Shown: piece after piece, positions 760 to 45,242 of the stretch | How the letters are laid out: each line of letters starts with the position of its first letter | How positions within the stretch are numbered: position 1 is the first letter of the stretch | The notes under the pieces: generated by a model | What the model was told of the DNA's origin: nothing | Database searches by the model: none | The model's input: only the letters and a program-made list of their open reading frames with translations | Program-made: the position numbers and the translations under genes | Assembly (NCBI GenBank): GCA_021828375.1 | Contig: JAKARS010000006.1 | Span: 1 to 50,194, forward strand | Reading direction: 5' to 3' | From: Nitrospirota bacterium | GTDB lineage: Bacteria > Nitrospirota > Leptospirillia > Leptospirillales > Leptospirillaceae | DNA: 50,194 bases

Positions 760-2550
760 ATGCCCACCCCGAACGCTTTTGCCGTTTACGACACTGACCT
801 TCTTGTTATCGGAGGGGGAACGGCCGGATGTTATGCGGCGATCATTGCCCGTCGAGAAAACCCCGATCTGAAAGTTTTAGTGGTTGATAAGGCCCATATT
901 GACCGCTCAGGATGTCTGGCAGGGGGGATGAATGCCATCAATGCCTACATCAACCCCGGAGAGACGGTCGACAGCTTTGTCGAGTACGTTCGGGAAGACG
1001 CCATGGGGATCCTTCGGGAGGATCTGGTGCGGACACAGGCGGCGCTCTTTTCCGAGGTGGTGTCGACGGTCGAGGCGATGGGGCTTCCCATCGTCAAGGA
1101 TCCCGACGGGAAGTATTCACCTCGTGGTCGCTGGAACATCAAGATCCACGGAGAGTCTCTCAAGCCGATCCTGGCCCGTGAGGTCAGAAAAAGCGGGGCG
1201 GAGGTCCTCGACAGGGTTGTGGTGACCGACCTTGTCACCATCGAGGGGGGCGTCCATGGGGCCGTGGGCTTTTCCCTCAAAAGTGGACAGCCCATCCGGG
1301 TCTCCGCCAAAAAGACCATTGTGGCCACCGGAGGAGCCTCGGGGCTCTATCGGCCCAACAACGAAGGTCTCTCTCGCCACAAGATGTGGTATTCCCCCTT
1401 CAATACGGGGGCGGGGTATGCCATCGGGATCAGGGCGGGAGCCGAGATGACCAGCTTTGAGCACCGCTTCATTGCCCTGCGGACCAAGGATACCATCGCC
1501 CCCACCGGGACCCTGGCGTTAGGATTCGGGGCTCCCCAGGTCAACTCCAAAGGCGAGGAGTTCATGAAGCTCCGCTGGGCGGATAAGGGCGGAGAGGGGG
1601 CACCGACGCCTCTTCGCCTCGAGGCCCCGCTCCGGGAAATCGAGGCCGGGAACGGTCCCTGCTTCATGGACACGCGGCATTTGGGAGCGGCCGATCTCAA
1701 GAGGCTCTATGAGGCCTATCTCGACATGTATCCCAATACGGTCCTCTACTGGGCGGCCAACAATGACGATCTGACGCGAACGCCGGTGGAAATCTGCGGA
1801 ACGGAGCCCTATCTCGTGGGGGGACATTGTCAGGCCGGATACTGGGTTGATGTCAACCGGCGGACCACTCTCCCGAATCTTTTTGCCGCAGGAGATGTGG
1901 CGGGAGGGGCCCCTTACAAATTCGTGAGCGGCTGCTTCGCTGAAGGGGCCATTGCCGCCCGGGCCGCCTCTCGGGAGATTCGGGAAGAAAAAACGGGTCT
2001 TGCCCGCCCGGAAAAGTCCGTGGAAGGGGAGCTTCTCCACCGAACCGTTTCCTTTCTGTCGAAAAACGGAAAGGGAAACGCTGGCTCAATTCGCCCGGAC
2101 GAGGCCGAAAGTCGCCTGCAAAAGATTATGGACGAGTATGCCGGAGGGCTGAGGACCTCCTACCGCATGAATGAGGCCGGCCTTCTCATGGCAAAGAAGA
2201 AGCTGGATTCGCTCCGCCAGGACCTCGGCCGGATACAGGCTCAGGATGCCTACGGCCTGATGGGAGCCCATGAGGTGGCGGACCGCCTCGATGTGGCCCA
2301 AGTTCTGGTTGAACACCTTCTGGCTCGGCGCGAAACCCGGTGGCCGGGATTTCAGAGCCGTCAGGACTGGCCGAATGCCGATCGCCGTTACGAACACTTT
2401 ATCAATTCGATTCGGGAGGACGACGGAACGGTCCGGGTCATCCACCGAAGCCTCTCCGGGGAGATCCTTCCCTGGGAGGACGTGAGCGGACAGGAATCTC
2501 TCCGGGAGGAGTCGATCGTGACCTCAGGGAGCTCTGTGGGGAAGTCCTGA
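760..2550 (+). CDS. aprA: Adenylylsulfate (APS) reductase alpha subunit
   Basis: FAD-containing subunit of heterodimeric APS reductase, which interconverts APS with sulfite plus AMP in the cytoplasm. The 596-residue product opens with a Rossmann FAD motif (GGGTAG, residues 18-23) in the order seen in the fumarate reductase/AprA flavoprotein family. It keeps the GGMNAIN loop, the FEHRF segment that carries an active-site Arg, and the GGHCQAGYWVD region with the active-site His near residue 355. It is a little shorter than typical AprA. The ATG has a GGAGG site 5-6 bases upstream. aprB follows after 27 bases and sat after that, so the three form an operon. No qmoABC or dsrAB lies in the window, which suits an assimilatory role in an organism not known to respire sulfate. 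That role is inferred. Confidence 0.92.
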   Translation: MPTPNAFAVYDTDLLVIGGGTAGCYAAIIARRENPDLKVLVVDKAHIDRSGCLAGGMNAINAYINPGETVDSFVEYVREDAMGILREDLVRTQAALFSEVVSTVEAMGLPIVKDPDGKYSPRGRWNIKIHGESLKPILAREVRKSGAEVLDRVVVTDLVTIEGGVHGAVGFSLKSGQPIRVSAKKTIVATGGASGLYRPNNEGLSRHKMWYSPFNTGAGYAIGIRAGAEMTSFEHRFIALRTKDTIAPTGTLALGFGAPQVNSKGEEFMKLRWADKGGEGAPTPLRLEAPLREIEAGNGPCFMDTRHLGAADLKRLYEAYLDMYPNTVLYWAANNDDLTRTPVEICGTEPYLVGGHCQAGYWVDVNRRTTLPNLFAAGDVAGGAPYKFVSGCFAEGAIAARAASREIREEKTGLARPEKSVEGELLHRTVSFLSKNGKGNAGSIRPDEAESRLQKIMDEYAGGLRTSYRMNEAGLLMAKKKLDSLRQDLGRIQAQDAYGLMGAHEVADRLDVAQVLVEHLLARRETRWPGFQSRQDWPNADRRYEHFINSIREDDGTVRVIHRSLSGEILPWEDVSGQESLREESIVTSGSSVGKS

Positions 2551-2577
2551 AAAAGGTGCATAACGAAGGAGACTGTG

Positions 2578-2919
2578 ATGGGAATTGCCATATCTGAGAC
2601 GCTGTGCCATGGATGCAAAAAATTGCCGGAGGCTCGTTGCGTCATTGCCTGTCCGGGGAATCTCATCCGGATGGACGAGGATCGGGGCCTCGCTGTGATG
2701 CGCGAGCAGGCTGACTGCTGGGATTGCTATGCCTGCGTGAAGATGTGTCCCGTGGGAGCGGTGGATGTGGTTCTTCCCTATGAACTGGCGGGGAGGGGGG
2801 CGCGTCTTTTCCCCCGCCTGAGACGGGAGTCCATTCGCTGGACCCTGCAGGTGGACGGGAAAGAAGATCAGACCTTTGAGCTTGCCACGCGTGTTCCGGA
2901 GGAACTTCTCGAAGGCTAG
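2578..2919 (+). CDS. aprB: APS reductase beta subunit, two [4Fe-4S] ferredoxin
   Basis: Iron-sulfur electron-entry subunit that docks on AprA. The 113-residue product has the split ferredoxin pattern of AprB: CxxC and a later CxxxCP near the N-terminus, then the cluster CWDCYACVKMCP around residues 49-60. That gives eight cysteines for two [4Fe-4S] clusters. Family members are usually about 145-165 residues. The long C-terminal tail that wraps around AprA is reduced here to roughly 50 residues. The ATG at 2578 is preferred to the GTG directly before it because the AAGGAG site is then 6 bases away. It is co-transcribed with aprA and sat. Confidence 0.9.
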   Translation: MGIAISETLCHGCKKLPEARCVIACPGNLIRMDEDRGLAVMREQADCWDCYACVKMCPVGAVDVVLPYELAGRGARLFPRLRRESIRWTLQVDGKEDQTFELATRVPEELLEG

Positions 2920-3031
2920 ACAGTGAAGAAATGAAGAGGGTGGTCATGCGTTGAGGCTTGAGTTCCCAAAAGGGAAGGGTCTTCATGGCCACTGTTGGCG
3001 AAACCGGTGATCCTTGTTAAAGGAGTTCAAG

Positions 3032-4222
3032 ATGTTCCTCTCTGTCCCTCATGGGGGTCGGCTCATTACGGCACTCTCCCCGGCCTCCGCCCGTGCCGAA
3101 ATGGCAAGATCCTATGCGACTCGCCCGGCCATCCGGCTTTCTCCCCGCGAGATCTCGGACCTCGGCCTCATTGCCATTGGGGCCGTGAGCCCGCTCGATG
3201 GTTTCATGGATGAGAAAACCTATCATTCGGTCGTCGAGCGCATGAGGCTCCCGGATGGTCTGGTCTTCCCTCTTCCCATCGTCTTGCCGGTTCGGGAGGA
3301 GGAGGCTCGGGGGCTCCGGATCGGAGAGGTTGTGCGTCTTTTGGACACAAGCGATCGTCTTTTGGGGCTCATGACCGTCTCGGACATCTTTCGGAGGGAT
3401 CTTGAGTGGGAAGCCCAGGAGGTCTATCGGACCAATGACCCCGCCCATCCCGGGGTTGCGGCGCTCGGTCGCCTTCCCGGACCCTTTGCCATCGGGGGAA
3501 AGGTCACCGTCTTCGACGACTGGTCGGAGGGCCCCTTTGCCCCTCTTGCCCTCACGCCGACCGAATCCCGGGCTCGCTTCGAGACTCTGGGGTGGCAGAC
3601 GGTCGTGGGGTTTCAGACAAGAAATCCCATTCACCGGGCGCACGAATATATCCAGAAGTGTTCGCTTGAGATTGTCGATGGCCTCTTCCTTCATCCCCTT
3701 GTGGGCGAGACCAAAGAAGATGACGTTCCTGCCAGTGTTCGGATGGATTGCTACAACGTTCTTCTCGAGCGGTATTACCCCCGGACGAGAGTTGTCCTGG
3801 GGGTCTTTCCCGGAGCCATGCGCTATGCGGGTCCCAGGGAGGCCCTCTTCCATGCATTGGTCAGAAAAAACTATGGTTGCACCCATTTTATCGTGGGTCG
3901 GGATCATGCCGGAGTGGGGAACTACTACGGTCCCTTTGAGGCCCATGCCCTTCTGCGCCAGTTCTCCTTTGATGAGCTGGGGATCATTCCGATCTTCTTC
4001 GATACCGCCTATTACTGCCGAACCTGCGAAGGAATGGTCTCCCACAAGACCTGCGGACATGACGAGAGCTCCCATGTCCTTCTGTCCGGAACAAAGGTCC
4101 GCCAGATGCTTCGAGATGGGTTGCCACCCCCTCCCGAGATGACCCGCCCGGAGGTGGCGGCGGTGTTGATCGGCCACTACAGGAAGCGTGAAGAGAGCAT
4201 ACCGGCTGTCTCCTCATCTTGA
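3032..4222 (+). CDS. sat: ATP sulfurylase (sulfate adenylyltransferase), homo-oligomeric type
   Basis: Converts sulfate and ATP to APS and pyrophosphate, supplying the substrate of AprAB encoded just upstream. The 396-residue product has the family signatures: QTRNPIHRAHE near residue 196 (sulfate and ATP-binding HxxH-type motif), and GRDHAGVG near residue 290. A Cys-Cys-Cys-His metal-site-like segment (YYCRTCEG...HKTCGH) lies near residues 327-347. There is no APS kinase domain. The ATG at 3032 follows AAAGGAG with 6-base spacing; the TTG 18 bases upstream is less likely because it precedes that site. The 112-base gap from aprB shows no terminator, so sat should share the aprA promoter. Confidence 0.95.
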   Translation: MFLSVPHGGRLITALSPASARAEMARSYATRPAIRLSPREISDLGLIAIGAVSPLDGFMDEKTYHSVVERMRLPDGLVFPLPIVLPVREEEARGLRIGEVVRLLDTSDRLLGLMTVSDIFRRDLEWEAQEVYRTNDPAHPGVAALGRLPGPFAIGGKVTVFDDWSEGPFAPLALTPTESRARFETLGWQTVVGFQTRNPIHRAHEYIQKCSLEIVDGLFLHPLVGETKEDDVPASVRMDCYNVLLERYYPRTRVVLGVFPGAMRYAGPREALFHALVRKNYGCTHFIVGRDHAGVGNYYGPFEAHALLRQFSFDELGIIPIFFDTAYYCRTCEGMVSHKTCGHDESSHVLLSGTKVRQMLRDGLPPPPEMTRPEVAAVLIGHYRKREESIPAVSSS

Positions 4223-37741: not shown

Positions 37742-38494
37742 GTGAGCGAGAGACAAAAGGTTGCTGTTGTCACGGGGGCATCCTCAGGTATTGGAAGCGA
37801 GACCGTAAGGGCTCTTGCAGGTGCCGGATATGTTGTCTATGGAGGGGCGAGACGAATGGACCGTCTCGTCGAGCTCTCGTCTGAAACAGGAATGTTCCCT
37901 AAACTTCTTGATGTGACGATTTCAGATTCAGTGAAGGGATTTGTTGAAACACTTCCCGAAAAGGTTGATCTCTTGGTCAATAATGCGGGGGGGGCTTTGG
38001 GGCTTGATCCTATATCAGAGATGGATGAAGGGGCCTGGCTTTCAATGTATCAGAGCAATGCCATGGGAACGGTACGAATGGTTCAGTCGCTCTTTTCGCG
38101 GCTTAAGGGCTCCGGACAGGGTCATGTGGTCAACATCGGGTCGGTTGCCGCGATTGAAACCTATAGTGGTGGCGCGGGCTATACGATGGCAAAGCACGCA
38201 TTGCGGGCGCTGACGGAAACCCTTAGGATCGAGTGGCTGGGCATGCCCATTCGCATCACCGAGATCGATCCGGGTCTCGTGGAAACGGAGTTTTCCCTGG
38301 TGCGATTCAAGGGAGATGCGATTCGGGCAAAAGGTGTTTATGCGGGGATGACTCCCTTGACCGCCAAGGATGTTGCCGATGCGGTTCTCTGGACGGTGAC
38401 CCGCCCCCCTCATGTCAATGTGGACAGCATTCTTCTCCGGCCCTTGGACCAGGCTCGGGTTGACCGGATTCATCGTCGTGGAGAGGGTGTATGA
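37742..38494 (+). CDS. Short-chain dehydrogenase/reductase
   Basis: SDR of 250 residues. It has the cofactor motif TGASSGIG near 11, a DVTIS segment near 58, NNAG near 80, Ser of NIGSVAA near 132, and YTMAK near 147. An Arg pair after the second strand (GARRMDR) suggests NADPH. The substrate is unknown. The start is GTG with GGGAGG 5 bases upstream. It overlaps tadA by ATGA, so the two are translationally coupled. Confidence 0.85.
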   Translation: MSERQKVAVVTGASSGIGSETVRALAGAGYVVYGGARRMDRLVELSSETGMFPKLLDVTISDSVKGFVETLPEKVDLLVNNAGGALGLDPISEMDEGAWLSMYQSNAMGTVRMVQSLFSRLKGSGQGHVVNIGSVAAIETYSGGAGYTMAKHALRALTETLRIEWLGMPIRITEIDPGLVETEFSLVRFKGDAIRAKGVYAGMTPLTAKDVADAVLWTVTRPPHVNVDSILLRPLDQARVDRIHRRGEGV

Positions 38495-38967
38495 CCCACC
38501 GAGAAAAGCCCAACCATCAGGCGGATCTCTGTTTTATGAATAAGGCACTGAACCTTGCCCGAAACGGCATTGGGGATGATGTTCCTGTGGGGGCCATCGT
38601 TGTGGTCGGAGGCGAAATCGTCGGGGAGGGGGTCAATCAGGGGCGGGCCAGTCACGATCCCACGGGCCATGCCGAGATCATTGCACTTCGTCAGGCAGCG
38701 GCACGCCTCGGAAATTATCGGCTCCCCTTGAGCACGCTTTATGTCACCCTTGAGCCATGCCTCATGTGTCTGGGGGCTATGATGGAGGGGCGGATCCATC
38801 GACTTGTCTTTGGGGCTCGAGATCCCAAGCGCGGGGTGGCAGGATCCTTATATGACCTTCATAATGATCCGCGATTCACTCATCGCATCAAGGTTGAGTC
38901 AGGCTTGTGCGAAGAGGAGTCGGGAGATCTCCTCCGTCAGTTTTTTGAAAAAAAAAGAGGAAGATGA
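38491..38967 (+). CDS. tadA: tRNA-specific adenosine deaminase (A34 to inosine)
   Basis: Deaminates A34 of tRNA-Arg(ACG). The 158-residue product has the cytidine-deaminase zinc site HAE (residues about 58-60, with catalytic Glu) and PCLMC (about 91-95), plus VPVGAIVV and the C-terminal helix. Its last codons contain an A run that doubles as the T tract of a leftward terminator (38948-38998). It is coupled to the SDR gene upstream. Confidence 0.93.
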   Translation: MTHREKPNHQADLCFMNKALNLARNGIGDDVPVGAIVVVGGEIVGEGVNQGRASHDPTGHAEIIALRQAAARLGNYRLPLSTLYVTLEPCLMCLGAMMEGRIHRLVFGARDPKRGVAGSLYDLHNDPRFTHRIKVESGLCEEESGDLLRQFFEKKRGR

Positions 38968-41362: not shown

Positions 41363-41384
41363 GAATGAATGGAAGGGTGGAAAC

Positions 41385-41750
41385 ATGGCAGGTTACGAAA
41401 AGGTCAGGGAGATCTTGGAGCAGCAAAAGCGAGAGATTCTTTCCGGTGTTGAGAGGACTCTCCAGACAGGAGTTGAAAAAGGTGTGGAGCTCTTTCCCGA
41501 TCCCGCCGATCTCGCCTCTGTCGAAGAAATCCAGGGATTTTCCTACCGACTGAAAGAACGAGAGAAGAAGCTTCTCCGAAAAATTGACGAGGCCCTCGAG
41601 CGGATCGAAGAGGGGTCTTTTGGGATCTGTGAACGCTGCGGAGAAGCCATCGAAGAAAAAAGGATGCTAGCCCGTCCTGTCACAACGTATTGCATTGCCT
41701 GCAAAACGATCTTGGAAGAAGCGGAGCGGGCCGAACAGATTCGTCGATGA
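41385..41750 (+). CDS. DksA/TraR-type zinc-finger protein
   Basis: RNA-polymerase secondary-channel regulator family. The 121-residue product has an N-terminal coiled coil (about 1-75, rich in Glu/Lys/Gln) and a C4 zinc finger, CERCGEAIEEKRMLARPVTT then YCIAC (about 87-112). It has the EERMLARP-type segment typical of DksA. A GGAAGGGTGG site precedes the ATG by 4 bases. It is shorter than E. coli DksA (151) and could be a DksA-like paralogue. It leads a run of overlapping genes, and a terminator-like hairpin sits in its leader. Confidence 0.85.
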   Translation: MAGYEKVREILEQQKREILSGVERTLQTGVEKGVELFPDPADLASVEEIQGFSYRLKEREKKLLRKIDEALERIEEGSFGICERCGEAIEEKRMLARPVTTYCIACKTILEEAERAEQIRR

Positions 41751-42457
41751 AATCTTCGGTTCTGGTCCTTGGGTCTGGCAGAGGTTTGGGTCGTGAGTTG
41801 TGCCGATTCTTTCTGGAGGAGGGCCATTCTGTCATTGGGGTCACTCGTACCCGGGAAAGCCTCACCGCACTTCTGGACGACTTTTCCCCAAGAAACCAAT
41901 GGTTTAGGGGCGAAGCCATTGATCTTTCCGACCGGGAATCTTCTCTGAAGTTTCTTCAAGGGCTGAGAAAAGAGCTCATTCCTGATCTTGTCGTCTATGC
42001 GGCGGGACATCTTTCCGGGCGCAAGCCCCTTTGGGATCTTTCCTGGGAGGAAATTGATCGCGAAATCTCGTCGAACCTTGCAGGTCCACTCTTCTGGTCG
42101 GTCGAGATGACTCGTGCTTTCTTGATGGCTAGGCGAGGAGGGCATTTATTTTTTTCATCCGGTGTTGTTCGGCTTCCCCGTCCCTCATGGGGGAGCTATG
42201 GAGTCGGCAAAGCCGCCATCGAGGCTCTGTCGAGACAAATTTCCCTCGACCTGCCACCGCCCCTCTATTCTCTGTCGATGAATCCGGGGCGGATGGCCAC
42301 CGCCATGCGCAAGGCAGCATTTCCAGATGAAGACCAAGCGACCTTACCTTCTCCCGTATCCATAGCCAAAAAGGTCGGGGCGTTTAGCCTGACGCTCATC
42401 GAAGGAGCGGGACGGACCTATAATGGGAAGGCCCTGACCATGGAGGATATTCCTTGA
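41747..42457 (+). CDS. Short-chain dehydrogenase/reductase
   Basis: SDR-like protein of 236 residues. The cofactor loop is GSGRGLG (near 8) instead of TGxxxGIG. NNAG is replaced by AAGHLSG near 83. A Ser (FFSSGVV) and YGVGK (Tyr/Lys) near 148 are kept. The divergence suggests a sub-family with a narrow substrate. It overlaps the DksA-like gene by ATGA and the next gene by TTGA, so it is embedded in a coupled operon. Confidence 0.75.
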   Translation: MKSSVLVLGSGRGLGRELCRFFLEEGHSVIGVTRTRESLTALLDDFSPRNQWFRGEAIDLSDRESSLKFLQGLRKELIPDLVVYAAGHLSGRKPLWDLSWEEIDREISSNLAGPLFWSVEMTRAFLMARRGGHLFFSSGVVRLPRPSWGSYGVGKAAIEALSRQISLDLPPPLYSLSMNPGRMATAMRKAAFPDEDQATLPSPVSIAKKVGAFSLTLIEGAGRTYNGKALTMEDIP

Positions 42458-43521
42458 AGTCGGTTGTTTTGACAGGAGAAAAAGGGGTTGAGGGAATCGT
42501 GCTGGAAGAACGGCCTGCTCCGACTCCGGGCCCGGGCGAAGTCAGGATACGGATGCGGGCCCACACCCTCAATCACATCGATATCTGGGTCCTTTCTGGC
42601 TCCCCTGCCTATAGCGTTCCATGTCCTCACATTATGGGATCGGAGGGGGTCGGAACGGTGGAGTCCCTTGGTGTTGGTGTGGACCCCCTTCTTGGCCTTT
42701 CTCCGGGACAGACTGTTGCCATTAGCCCAGGGCAGGGGTGTCTGGTCTGCGAACTGTGCAGGAGCGGATCAGAGTCTCTTTGTCCCTCCTACAGGGTATT
42801 GGGGGGCCACCTGCCTGGGATCTTTTCCGAGGTGGTCTGTCTGCCGGCCTCCCGCCTCATTCCTGTTCCTGATGGAGTCGATGCCCTTTCTGCTTCTGCC
42901 GTGACCCTTGCCGGAGCGACAGCTCATCAGGCACTTGTTGTTAGAGGGCTTGCAAAGCCGGGAGAAAAATGGCTCGTCGTGGGCGCAAGTGGAGGGGTGG
43001 GGCATCTGGCCTGCCTTCTGGGAAAGGCCCTGAAAATCGAGATGGTAGGAACCTATGGGCCCGAAAGGAAACGGGAGCCTTTGAGCAGAGGGTTGGCGAT
43101 TCCTCTTGTGTCTCATGAGGCGGCTGATTGGACCGATAGGCTCAGGGAGTCGAATGGACAGCCTTTCGATGGAGTTCTCGATACGGTCGGAGGAGCGACG
43201 ATCCCAAGAGTTCTTCCCCTTCTTCGGAAAGGAGGAAGAGCTGTTGTTGTGGGGGAGACGACAGGAGCTCAGACCCAATTCCCGACCCGAGAGCTTTTTG
43301 GGAGGCAGCTTTCCCTACACGGAGTCTATCTGGCCCATAGAATGGATATCGTGGCAATGCTCGGATGGTTGTCCCGGGGCGCACTTCGTCCCATCGTTTC
43401 TTCCGTCGGCTCCCTTGAATCTGTGACCCCTCTTCGAGAGGCGTATCAAAGAATGATTGACCGGGATTTCGTTGGAAAGATCGGCTTCGTTTGGGATCCT
43501 CAAGGGGGAGAAAAAAAGTGA
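42454..43521 (+). CDS. Zinc-type MDR alcohol dehydrogenase/quinone reductase
   Basis: Medium-chain dehydrogenase of 355 residues. It has a GroES-like N-terminal domain with PGPGEVRIRM and GSEGVGTVE, and a structural-zinc lobe with CxxCxxC and a fourth Cys seven residues on (CLVCELCRSGSESLC). A Rossmann domain follows with GASGGVGHLA near 178. The catalytic-zinc Cys of the first domain is not evident (NHIDIW), which resembles quinone-oxidoreductase-like members. The start is TTG overlapping the SDR stop, with GGAGG 7 bases upstream. The substrate is unknown. Confidence 0.8.
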   Translation: MKSVVLTGEKGVEGIVLEERPAPTPGPGEVRIRMRAHTLNHIDIWVLSGSPAYSVPCPHIMGSEGVGTVESLGVGVDPLLGLSPGQTVAISPGQGCLVCELCRSGSESLCPSYRVLGGHLPGIFSEVVCLPASRLIPVPDGVDALSASAVTLAGATAHQALVVRGLAKPGEKWLVVGASGGVGHLACLLGKALKIEMVGTYGPERKREPLSRGLAIPLVSHEAADWTDRLRESNGQPFDGVLDTVGGATIPRVLPLLRKGGRAVVVGETTGAQTQFPTRELFGRQLSLHGVYLAHRMDIVAMLGWLSRGALRPIVSSVGSLESVTPLREAYQRMIDRDFVGKIGFVWDPQGGEKK

Positions 43522-44357
43522 ATCAAAAAAGATTCGCATTAGGTCTGATGCTGACGACGATGCTTGTCATGGTATCGGGTTGCGATCTCCCTTTCATGCA
43601 GAAGTTTATGGCGCGTGTTCATAAGGAAAACCCGGATGACACCCGCTTTACCAAAGAGTCGACGGCATTCAATGCTCTGATTCGGAATAACCGATTTCGC
43701 CAGGCTCTGGCCTGGACTCAAAAGTGGGAAAGGGTTCGGGATCTGTCAAATGCCAACCGCAAGAAGGTCTTAAAAGATCAGCGGACCGTCCGGATGCTTG
43801 GTGCGGCCTATTATCTTGGGGTTGCCAGGGAGCGAAGTCGGAGGGAACGCTTCCATGGGGCACTTGAAGCTCTCCGAATTGCCCGCACATTTACTCCTTC
43901 GGATCCAGTCCTTGCAAGGGAGATCCAGGAGGTCAAGGCCAGAATTATCGTTTCGGGGGAGGCGGGGCAGGATTGGGGGGAGGCAGTTCAGAAACTTCTT
44001 GCCCTCAAAAGAAGAAATCCTCAGGATCATGCCATTGATCCAACCCTTGGATGGGCTTATTCAAAACTTGCGGAAAGTGAATATACCTCAGGTCGCCTCC
44101 CCTTAGCTTTTCAGTTCACCCAGTCTGCCCTCGCTTACGATCCTGGCAATGAAGGGGCTGTCAGACTGAAAGACCGGATCTCACGGAGGGTTAGCCTTTT
44201 TGTGGAGAAGGCGGAAGCCGCTTATCGAAGAAAGGACTTTCTGGGGGCCCGGGACAATCTCTCGCGAGCATTGGAGATCGATCCCAAGAACGAGAAGGCA
44301 AAGGAAGACTGGAAGATCCTTCAGAAGACCCCCACGGGGTTGCCTTCCAATCCCTAA
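43518..44357 (+). CDS. TPR-type lipoprotein
   Basis: The 279-residue product has a lipoprotein signal (LMLTTMLVMVSGC, lipobox VSGC, Cys near 22) followed by helical repeats of tetratricopeptide style (for example AFQFTQSALAYDPGNEGAVR and DNLSRALEIDPKNEKA). It is predicted to be periplasmic and membrane-tethered. The start is GTG overlapping the MDR stop, with GGGGGAG 7 bases upstream. dapF follows after 27 bases. Confidence 0.75.
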   Translation: MNQKRFALGLMLTTMLVMVSGCDLPFMQKFMARVHKENPDDTRFTKESTAFNALIRNNRFRQALAWTQKWERVRDLSNANRKKVLKDQRTVRMLGAAYYLGVARERSRRERFHGALEALRIARTFTPSDPVLAREIQEVKARIIVSGEAGQDWGEAVQKLLALKRRNPQDHAIDPTLGWAYSKLAESEYTSGRLPLAFQFTQSALAYDPGNEGAVRLKDRISRRVSLFVEKAEAAYRRKDFLGARDNLSRALEIDPKNEKAKEDWKILQKTPTGLPSNP

Positions 44358-44384: not shown

Positions 44385-45242
44385 ATGAAGACGGATTTTG
44401 TGAAAGGTCATGGTCTGGGAAACGATTATATTGTCATGGTTGAAGGTGCGTCTCCGAAGATGACGGAGGCTAATGTCAGACTCCTCTGCGACCGGAATTA
44501 TGGGATCGGTTCCGACGGAATCCTTCTCTTGGGACAGCGGACGCCGCCCTTTGGTCTCCGGATCTTTAATCCTGACGGTTCCGAGGCAGAAAAAAGTGGA
44601 AATGGTCTCCGGATTTTTTCCAAGTTTCTTTATGAGTATGGTTATGCCAAGGAAACATCCTTCCCAATCGACACTAAGGGGGGACGTGTGAGTTCAACGG
44701 TGACTGTCGGTGCAGACGGTCGGGTGACTGCCGTAAAGGTTGACATGGGGCGATATTCCTTTAACCCCTCCGATGTGGGGATCCTGGGGCGATCAAATCC
44801 TATGATTGAGGAAGTCCTGCGTCTTGAGGACGGAACTGAGGTCCGGGGATCGGCAGTTTCCGTGGGAAATCCTCACTTTGTGTTTTTTGTGGAGAAGATC
44901 GACGAGAATTTCATTCACGAAAAAGGGCGAATGATCGAGAACAACAAGATGTTCCCGAAGCGGATCAATACCCAAATGGTCCGAGTCATTGGAAGGAATG
45001 AGATTGAGATCAGAATCTGGGAACGGGGTGCCGGGTATACCTTGGCTTCGGGGAGCAGTTCTTGTGCTGCGGCAACCATCGCGGTGCATCTCGGTCGCGT
45101 TCAGAGTCCTGTCCGGGTCCATATGCCTGGAGGAGTTCTCATGATCGAAGTCGATGAAAATCACGAAATCCGAATGGAGGGACCTGTGGAGGAGGTCATG
45201 ACAGGTCACCTCTCTCCCGACTTGAAAAAGCGGCTTGAGTAA
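44385..45242 (+). CDS. dapF: Diaminopimelate epimerase homologue with both catalytic Cys changed to Ser
   Basis: DapF interconverts LL- and meso-diaminopimelate with two Cys acting as acid and base. This 285-residue homologue has the full fold and substrate-binding set: HGLGND, FNPDGSEAE, SVGNPH, RINTQ and WERGAG. The first catalytic site reads SGNGLRI (Ser71, and Ile77 where GNGxRC is usual). The second reads ASGSSSC (Ser222) where ACGTGAC is usual; Cys227 remains. It may be a diverged enzyme on another substrate, a slow Ser/Ser epimerase, or a non-catalytic relative. It is the last gene of the dksA-like operon; start ATG at 44385. Confidence 0.8.
   Translation: MKTDFVKGHGLGNDYIVMVEGASPKMTEANVRLLCDRNYGIGSDGILLLGQRTPPFGLRIFNPDGSEAEKSGNGLRIFSKFLYEYGYAKETSFPIDTKGGRVSSTVTVGADGRVTAVKVDMGRYSFNPSDVGILGRSNPMIEEVLRLEDGTEVRGSAVSVGNPHFVFFVEKIDENFIHEKGRMIENNKMFPKRINTQMVRVIGRNEIEIRIWERGAGYTLASGSSSCAAATIAVHLGRVQSPVRVHMPGGVLMIEVDENHEIRMEGPVEEVMTGHLSPDLKKRLE

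Follow-up and report, generated by a model that had tools for sequence, protein, structure and literature searches.

Epimerases that act on amino acids without a cofactor have to take the proton from a carbon acid of pKa ~29, and for this reason they are the usual textbook case of a reaction thought to require two tuned thiols. Among them, diaminopimelate (DAP) epimerase, DapF, is a long-standing antibacterial target that has been hit via its catalytic cysteines with aziridine and epoxide inhibitors. The pKa of serine lies several units above that of cysteine. Single Cys-to-Ser mutants of the DapF-like racemase PddB have less than 0.1% activity, and the same is reported for Mt-DapF (PMC8225329); a natural DapF carrying serine at both positions is therefore a real puzzle. 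In C. glutamicum DapF, a disulfide switch is known (PMC5296763).

We analysed a stretch of 50,194 nucleotides from a Nitrospirota bacterium of the family Leptospirillaceae (GCA_021828375.1, contig JAKARS010000006.1), referred to below as the window. Its dapF is the last gene of a tight same-strand run, dksA - SDR - MDR - TPR lipoprotein - dapF:

41376..41750, + strand: DksA/TraR-type protein, first gene of the run (family matches)
41747..42457, + strand: short-chain dehydrogenase, SDR (family matches)
42454..43521, + strand: zinc-type alcohol dehydrogenase, MDR (family matches)
43518..44357, + strand: TPR-repeat lipoprotein-like gene upstream of dapF in the same run; start uncertain; conserved in loci L195 and L197
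44385..45242, + strand: Ser/Ser-type diaminopimelate epimerase (DapF) gene, 285 aa, ATG start

The ATG of the dapF open reading frame is preceded by AGGAG. The product matches the TIGR00652 DapF equivalog over its full length (residues 4-276) at 238.5 bits, the curated equivalog cut-off being 114.65 bits, and Pfam DAP_epimerase (PF01678) at E=5.9e-52. The run is kept in the same genus and family (L195, L197). An earlier, sequence-only reading of this DNA had described dapF as the end of an operon with an SDR, an MDR and a DksA-like gene and had remarked on the absence of lysine genes; both observations stand, although the TPR lipoprotein gene was missing from that description. Elsewhere in the window (37742-38967), an SDR gene runs 4 bases into the beginning of a gene for a tadA-type tRNA adenosine deaminase, which looks like ordinary coupling. 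Genome G012, of the same genus, has two Ser/Ser dapF genes (L194 and L195, on C30 and C33), ~70% identical to that of the window and with similar neighbours; these may come from two strains that were binned together.

When window DapF is aligned with DapF chains from the PDB, S71 (in KSGNGLRI) and S222 (in ASGSSSC) fall at the two catalytic cysteines. The residues that matter for the argument are the following:

44592..44594, + strand: Lys70, candidate pKa-tuning residue, invariant in the Ser/Ser clade only
44595..44597, + strand: Ser71 codon, aligned with Cys73 of H. influenzae, the first catalytic cysteine; N-terminal end of helix 72-84
44613..44615, + strand: Ile77 in place of the Cys of GNGxRC (alignment of the Ser and Cys sets)
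44874..44876, + strand: His164, catalytic-assist residue, invariant in the Ser-type and Cys-type classes
45021..45026, + strand: Glu213-Arg214, recognition of the DAP amine/carboxylate, invariant; E212/R213 of CgDapF are essential (PMC5296763)
45048..45050, + strand: Ser222 codon, aligned with Cys217 of H. influenzae, the second catalytic cysteine; N-terminal end of helix 223-235
45051..45062, + strand: Gly-Ser-Ser-Ser (223-226) in place of GTGA, carboxylate-binding loop (alignment)

The sequence-only reading had named both serines, Ile77, the altered GTGA loop and the retained substrate-binding residues, and the PDB alignment together with 100 Ser-type homologues bears it out on each. The PROSITE DapF signature with its Cys (PDOC01029, quoted in PMC8225329) does not match window DapF. 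Lysine occupies position 70 in 100/100 Ser-type and 0/24 Cys-type proteins, the latter having Met, Gln or other residues, and in C. trachomatis DapF the corresponding residue is part of the pocket lining (PMC5885031). Residue 77 is Ile in 99% of the Ser set and Cys in 23 of the 24 members of the Cys set. Besides S71 and S222, then, K70, I77 and S225 are exclusive or nearly so to the Ser class, residue 225 being G in one divergent family, f7. Tyr15 was dropped as a clade-diagnostic residue because it is also found in Planctomycetota Cys/Cys DapF. We also considered a relocated catalytic thiol and rejected both candidates: C35 is the only near-invariant cysteine but is not clade-specific, since 17/24 Cys-type proteins have it too, and residue 227, five positions after S222, varies (82 Cys, 17 Ser, 1 Val), drifting between Cys and Ser.

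Codon usage shows that the serines themselves are kept. Among the 100 Ser-type sequences Ser71 is encoded by AGY in 62 and TCN in 38, and Ser222 by TCN in 99 and AGC in one; as both codon families are in use, it is the residue that is conserved. Cysteine (TGY) is one base away from many of these codons, yet it is never seen at either site (0/100). Pairwise omega within the family is 0.05-0.17; these values are for closer pairs, since dS is already saturated when the window gene is compared with its nearest relative.

The serine pair is present in 13/13 related DapF loci of the same family, and in the same genus and family, as in two other families of Nitrospirota, no DapF found departs from Ser/Ser. 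When a named genome collection of 84,980 species was scanned for DapF relatives, the best 80 genome loci were all Ser/Ser (80/80) and came from at least 13 phyla: the hosts belong to Nitrospirota, Bacteroidota, Aquificota, Rokubacteria/Methylomirabilota, Bacillota, Chloroflexota, Planctomycetota, Verrucomicrobiota, Armatimonadota, Gemmatimonadota, Latescibacterota, Dadabacteria, Dictyoglomota and FCPU426, with one alphaproteobacterial metagenome-assembled genome (MAG). Many of these genomes are MAGs; the isolates include Nitrospira moscoviensis, Mangrovibacterium, Sunxiuqinia, Apibacter and Neobacillus. No mixed Ser/Cys pair occurs among the 100 Ser-type and 24 Cys-type aligned proteins, and phylum samples of Bacteroidota, Verrucomicrobiota, Aquificota and Planctomycetota hold Ser/Ser or Cys/Cys only; the apparent mixed pairs in the tallies (C/T, C/M) come from the regular expression misreading Cys/Cys proteins or from a motif that was mismatched. 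Sequencing error or a private mutation can be rejected, the pair being fixed in 100 homologues. One Cys-type DapF (L032, genome G033) has an in-frame C-terminal extension of ~95 residues that by eye resembles a PilZ-like domain.

The sequence-only reading had proposed a tree of DapF homologues. In a maximum-likelihood tree of 97 proteins, a single branch, supported at 100/100, has all Ser-type rows to one side. They still group together (SH-aLRT 99) after removal of 14 class-defining or active-loop columns, and we therefore reject the idea that the Ser/Ser trait itself produces the grouping. As read from these alignments, Ser/Ser DapF is a large branch of the family across many phyla and not a single variant, and automatic annotation hides it under the ordinary DapF name.

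Of 30 genomes examined with a Ser/Ser DapF, most have nothing else of the kind. Exactly one PF01678 gene is present in 24/30, among them G015 (one contig, 99% complete, same family) and the complete N. moscoviensis; one further genome, G012, has the two Ser/Ser genes noted above, and five have an additional Cys/Cys DapF (G026 and G035, both of f7, and G065, G066 and G078). Cys-type dapF was found neither in the window's own genome nor in 24/30 Ser-type genomes. The surrounding pathway calls for an epimerase. All 28 genomes tested have lysA (28/28, 22 above cut-off) and MurE, the latter with the meso-DAP motif DNPR in every case (28/28), by which we reject a non-DAP peptidoglycan. Formation of meso-DAP by DAP dehydrogenase (Ddh) was rejected likewise, with a family match above cut-off in 0/28 genomes. 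LysA acts on meso-DAP, so an LL-to-meso epimerase is required in these genomes. DapL is convincing in 20/28 (seven above the TIGR03542 cut-off, seven above that of TIGR03540, and six at 575-588 bits against 593). Ser/Ser DapF was thus found with the DAP/lysine/peptidoglycan pathway and without another epimerase.

The window's own genome, which is 72% complete, has lysA and MurE-DNPR; dapL was not found in it. Same-genus G012 has a lysA-dapA-dapB-dapL cluster. A search for a second, Cys-type dapF and for dapL had been suggested by the sequence-only reading: the former was not found in the window's genome or in complete relatives, and the latter is present in the genus though not found in the genome itself. 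Together these checks point to a functional enzyme.

Gene order in other lineages says the same. In four unrelated lineages Ser/Ser dapF adjoins dapA, dapB, dapL or lysA: in Bacteroidota it adjoins lysA in 9 loci, including one with the order dapL-lysA-dapF (L046), and elsewhere it follows dapB-dapA (dapB-dapA-dapF, L085), stands between dapB and dapL (L106) or adjoins dapL (L059). No metallophore, antibiotic or polymer cluster was seen in the listed neighbourhoods, which have DAP genes instead. At L106, in the alphaproteobacterial MAG (2158-4202), the dapF match overlaps the start of dapL by ~50 bases, with a stop in the tblastn frame; either overlapping genes or a faulty assembly might explain this.

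In Aquificota the two forms exclude each other. Each of 31 genomes has one DapF class, Ser in 7 and other in 24, and none has both (Fisher p=4e-7 for 24 vs 7, phylogeny ignored); 23 of the 24 read as Cys/Cys, and the last, G170, was scored at class level, as non-Ser. One class per genome indicates orthologous replacement and not an extra paralogue. Where both forms co-occur, the Ser copy may serve another role, since a Cys/Cys DapF is also there (G026, G035, G065, G066, G078). Family f7 (L020-L022 in G026, G035 and G043; L186, L193) has a divergent Ser/Ser DapF with an ASGTGAS loop and a shorter middle part, and in G026 the Cys/Cys DapF gene sits between dapL-like and lysA genes. In Clostridium sp. 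LS (G066, L047), a Bacillota MAG (G078, L048) and Neobacillus cucumis (G065, L052), the Ser/Ser copy that exists in addition to the Cys-type DapF nests among Bacteroidota sequences, which suggests transfer. A planctomycete genome (G211; L294, L322) has Ser/Ser and Cys/Cys DapF genes on different contigs.

The AlphaFold2 model of window DapF has a mean pLDDT of 95.7, and in it S71 and S222 immediately precede helices 72-84 and 223-235. Its closest PDB match is 9mro, a cyanobacterial DAP epimerase with a bound DAP analogue (TM 0.88/0.90). The comparison with O-ureidoserine racemase gives TM 0.87/0.89; because fold alone cannot separate the two, the substrate assignment relies on residues. Alanine mutants of CgDapF at N15, N74, N85, N159, N194, E212, R213 and T223 are without activity (PMC5296763). 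Their counterparts in window DapF are N13, N62, N73, N162, N195, E213, R214 and S/T224; the first seven are invariant in 100 Ser-type sequences, and at 224 Ser (91) alternates with Thr (9). Window DapF keeps the residues for distal DAP recognition, the loss of which would be expected of an O-ureidoserine, histidine or Dab racemase.

We consider it likely that window DapF is the organism's DAP epimerase, with two serines replacing the thiol/thiolate pair as proton donor and acceptor. A bona fide epimerase with two hydroxyls was not among the readings offered earlier (another substrate, a much slower epimerase or a binding protein), which copy number, pathway genes and DAP gene clusters elsewhere disfavour; it now appears the best supported. 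While family, fold, residues, strict conservation, sole-copy status and pathway context come from sequence, we infer activity and proton transfer by serine. Catalytic activity of Ser/Ser DapF as a DAP epimerase is very probable, and, given activity, there are good grounds to expect that the serines themselves carry the proton, their pKa lowered by Lys70, His164, Glu213 and helix dipoles.

The enzyme would interconvert LL-DAP and meso-DAP for lysine and peptidoglycan, the LL-DAP of the pathway coming from the aminotransferase DapL. S71 and S222, each at the N-terminus of one central helix, would donate and accept the proton from either side of the substrate alpha-carbon, and Lys70 beside Ser71, with His164, Glu213 and the helix dipoles, would lower the hydroxyl pKa, in place of the shift that elsewhere comes from thiols. 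As engineered Cys-to-Ser enzymes are less than 0.1% active, the Ser/Ser clade must carry compensating changes, for which K70, I77 and S225 are the visible candidates. It is plausible, and somewhat favoured, that the whole constitutes a phylum-spanning clade of two-hydroxyl (Ser/Ser) 1,1-proton-transfer amino-acid epimerases with an altered pKa-tuning network centred on Lys70. The clade is probably a natural exception to the rule that such chemistry needs two thiols.

The alternative that survives best, though we think it unlikely, is a true DAP epimerase whose acid/base residues are not the serines: Lys70, His164 or Tyr15 would move the protons, or the reaction would use one base. Lys70 lies directly before S71, follows the class division exactly (100/100 against 0/24), and its equivalent is within the C. 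trachomatis DapF pocket (PMC5885031). However, both serines are strictly kept at two helix N-termini though Cys is one base away, a single lysine on one face leaves the conservation of S222 unexplained, and Tyr15 is shared with Planctomycetota Cys/Cys DapF. Decidedly improbable is a DapF-derived racemase, epimerase or dehydratase for another amino acid. DapF-fold enzymes have changed substrate repeatedly (HisR, DcsC, PddB, the proline racemase family), the fold fails to set window DapF apart from O-ureidoserine racemase (TM 0.87), and some genomes have a Cys DapF as well; but the full set of DapF residues for distal-carboxylate and amine recognition is invariant, DAP/lysine genes adjoin Ser/Ser dapF in four lineages, and genomes that need meso-DAP would have no epimerase. 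Least probable of all is a dead or nearly dead binding or regulatory protein, with an unknown non-homologous enzyme making meso-DAP: engineered Cys-to-Ser variants are indeed almost inactive, and E. coli DapF is known to bind RppH as a non-catalytic partner (PMC4227774), but the one-for-one exclusive replacement of the Cys form in Aquificota, a whole substrate site invariant over at least 13 phyla and the operons with DAP genes all speak against it.

If epimerisation by two serines is correct, a natural Ser/Ser clade that spans many phyla and is mostly the only DapF of its hosts would mean that two hydroxyls suffice in the right setting, and the clade would at once offer material for comparing how the base is tuned. 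It would also predict that some bacteria have a DapF on which neither cysteine-directed inhibitors nor inactivation by oxidative disulfide formation has an effect.

We found no description of a Ser/Ser DapF in the open-access (PMC) literature; by that measure the enzyme family is known, but this catalytic form of it would be new. Window DapF resembles canonical DapF (TIGR00652/PF01678; PDB 9mro, 1gqz, 2otn, 5m47) in its fold and length, in having two pseudosymmetric lobes, in the residues that bind DAP, in the assisting His and Glu, and in pathway context; it differs in that both catalytic cysteines are serine, the preceding Met/Gln is Lys, the Cys of GNGxRC is Ile and GTG is G[ST]S. Serine at one catalytic position of the same fold is also present in H. 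influenzae DapF C73S and C217S (PDB 2q9h, 2q9j), but these are single mutants engineered for crystallography, whereas in window DapF both sites are naturally Ser and conserved, with the compensating-looking neighbours K70, I77 and S225. A natural precedent for one such exchange in a two-base epimerase of the DapF fold is the cluster 9 4-hydroxyproline 2-epimerase (B9JQV3, Ser93/Cys), which is active with one Ser and one Cys on opposite faces (PMC4113996); unlike window DapF it has one Ser only and belongs to another branch of the superfamily, with another substrate. The Ser/Thr t3Hyp enzymes of the proline racemase superfamily are dehydratases, not epimerases (PMC4113996). In the Cys/Thr aspartate/glutamate racemases EcL-DER and MMP0739 a hydroxyl residue likewise replaces a catalytic thiol, but at one site, in another fold and with reported or predicted unidirectional action (PMC8142540).
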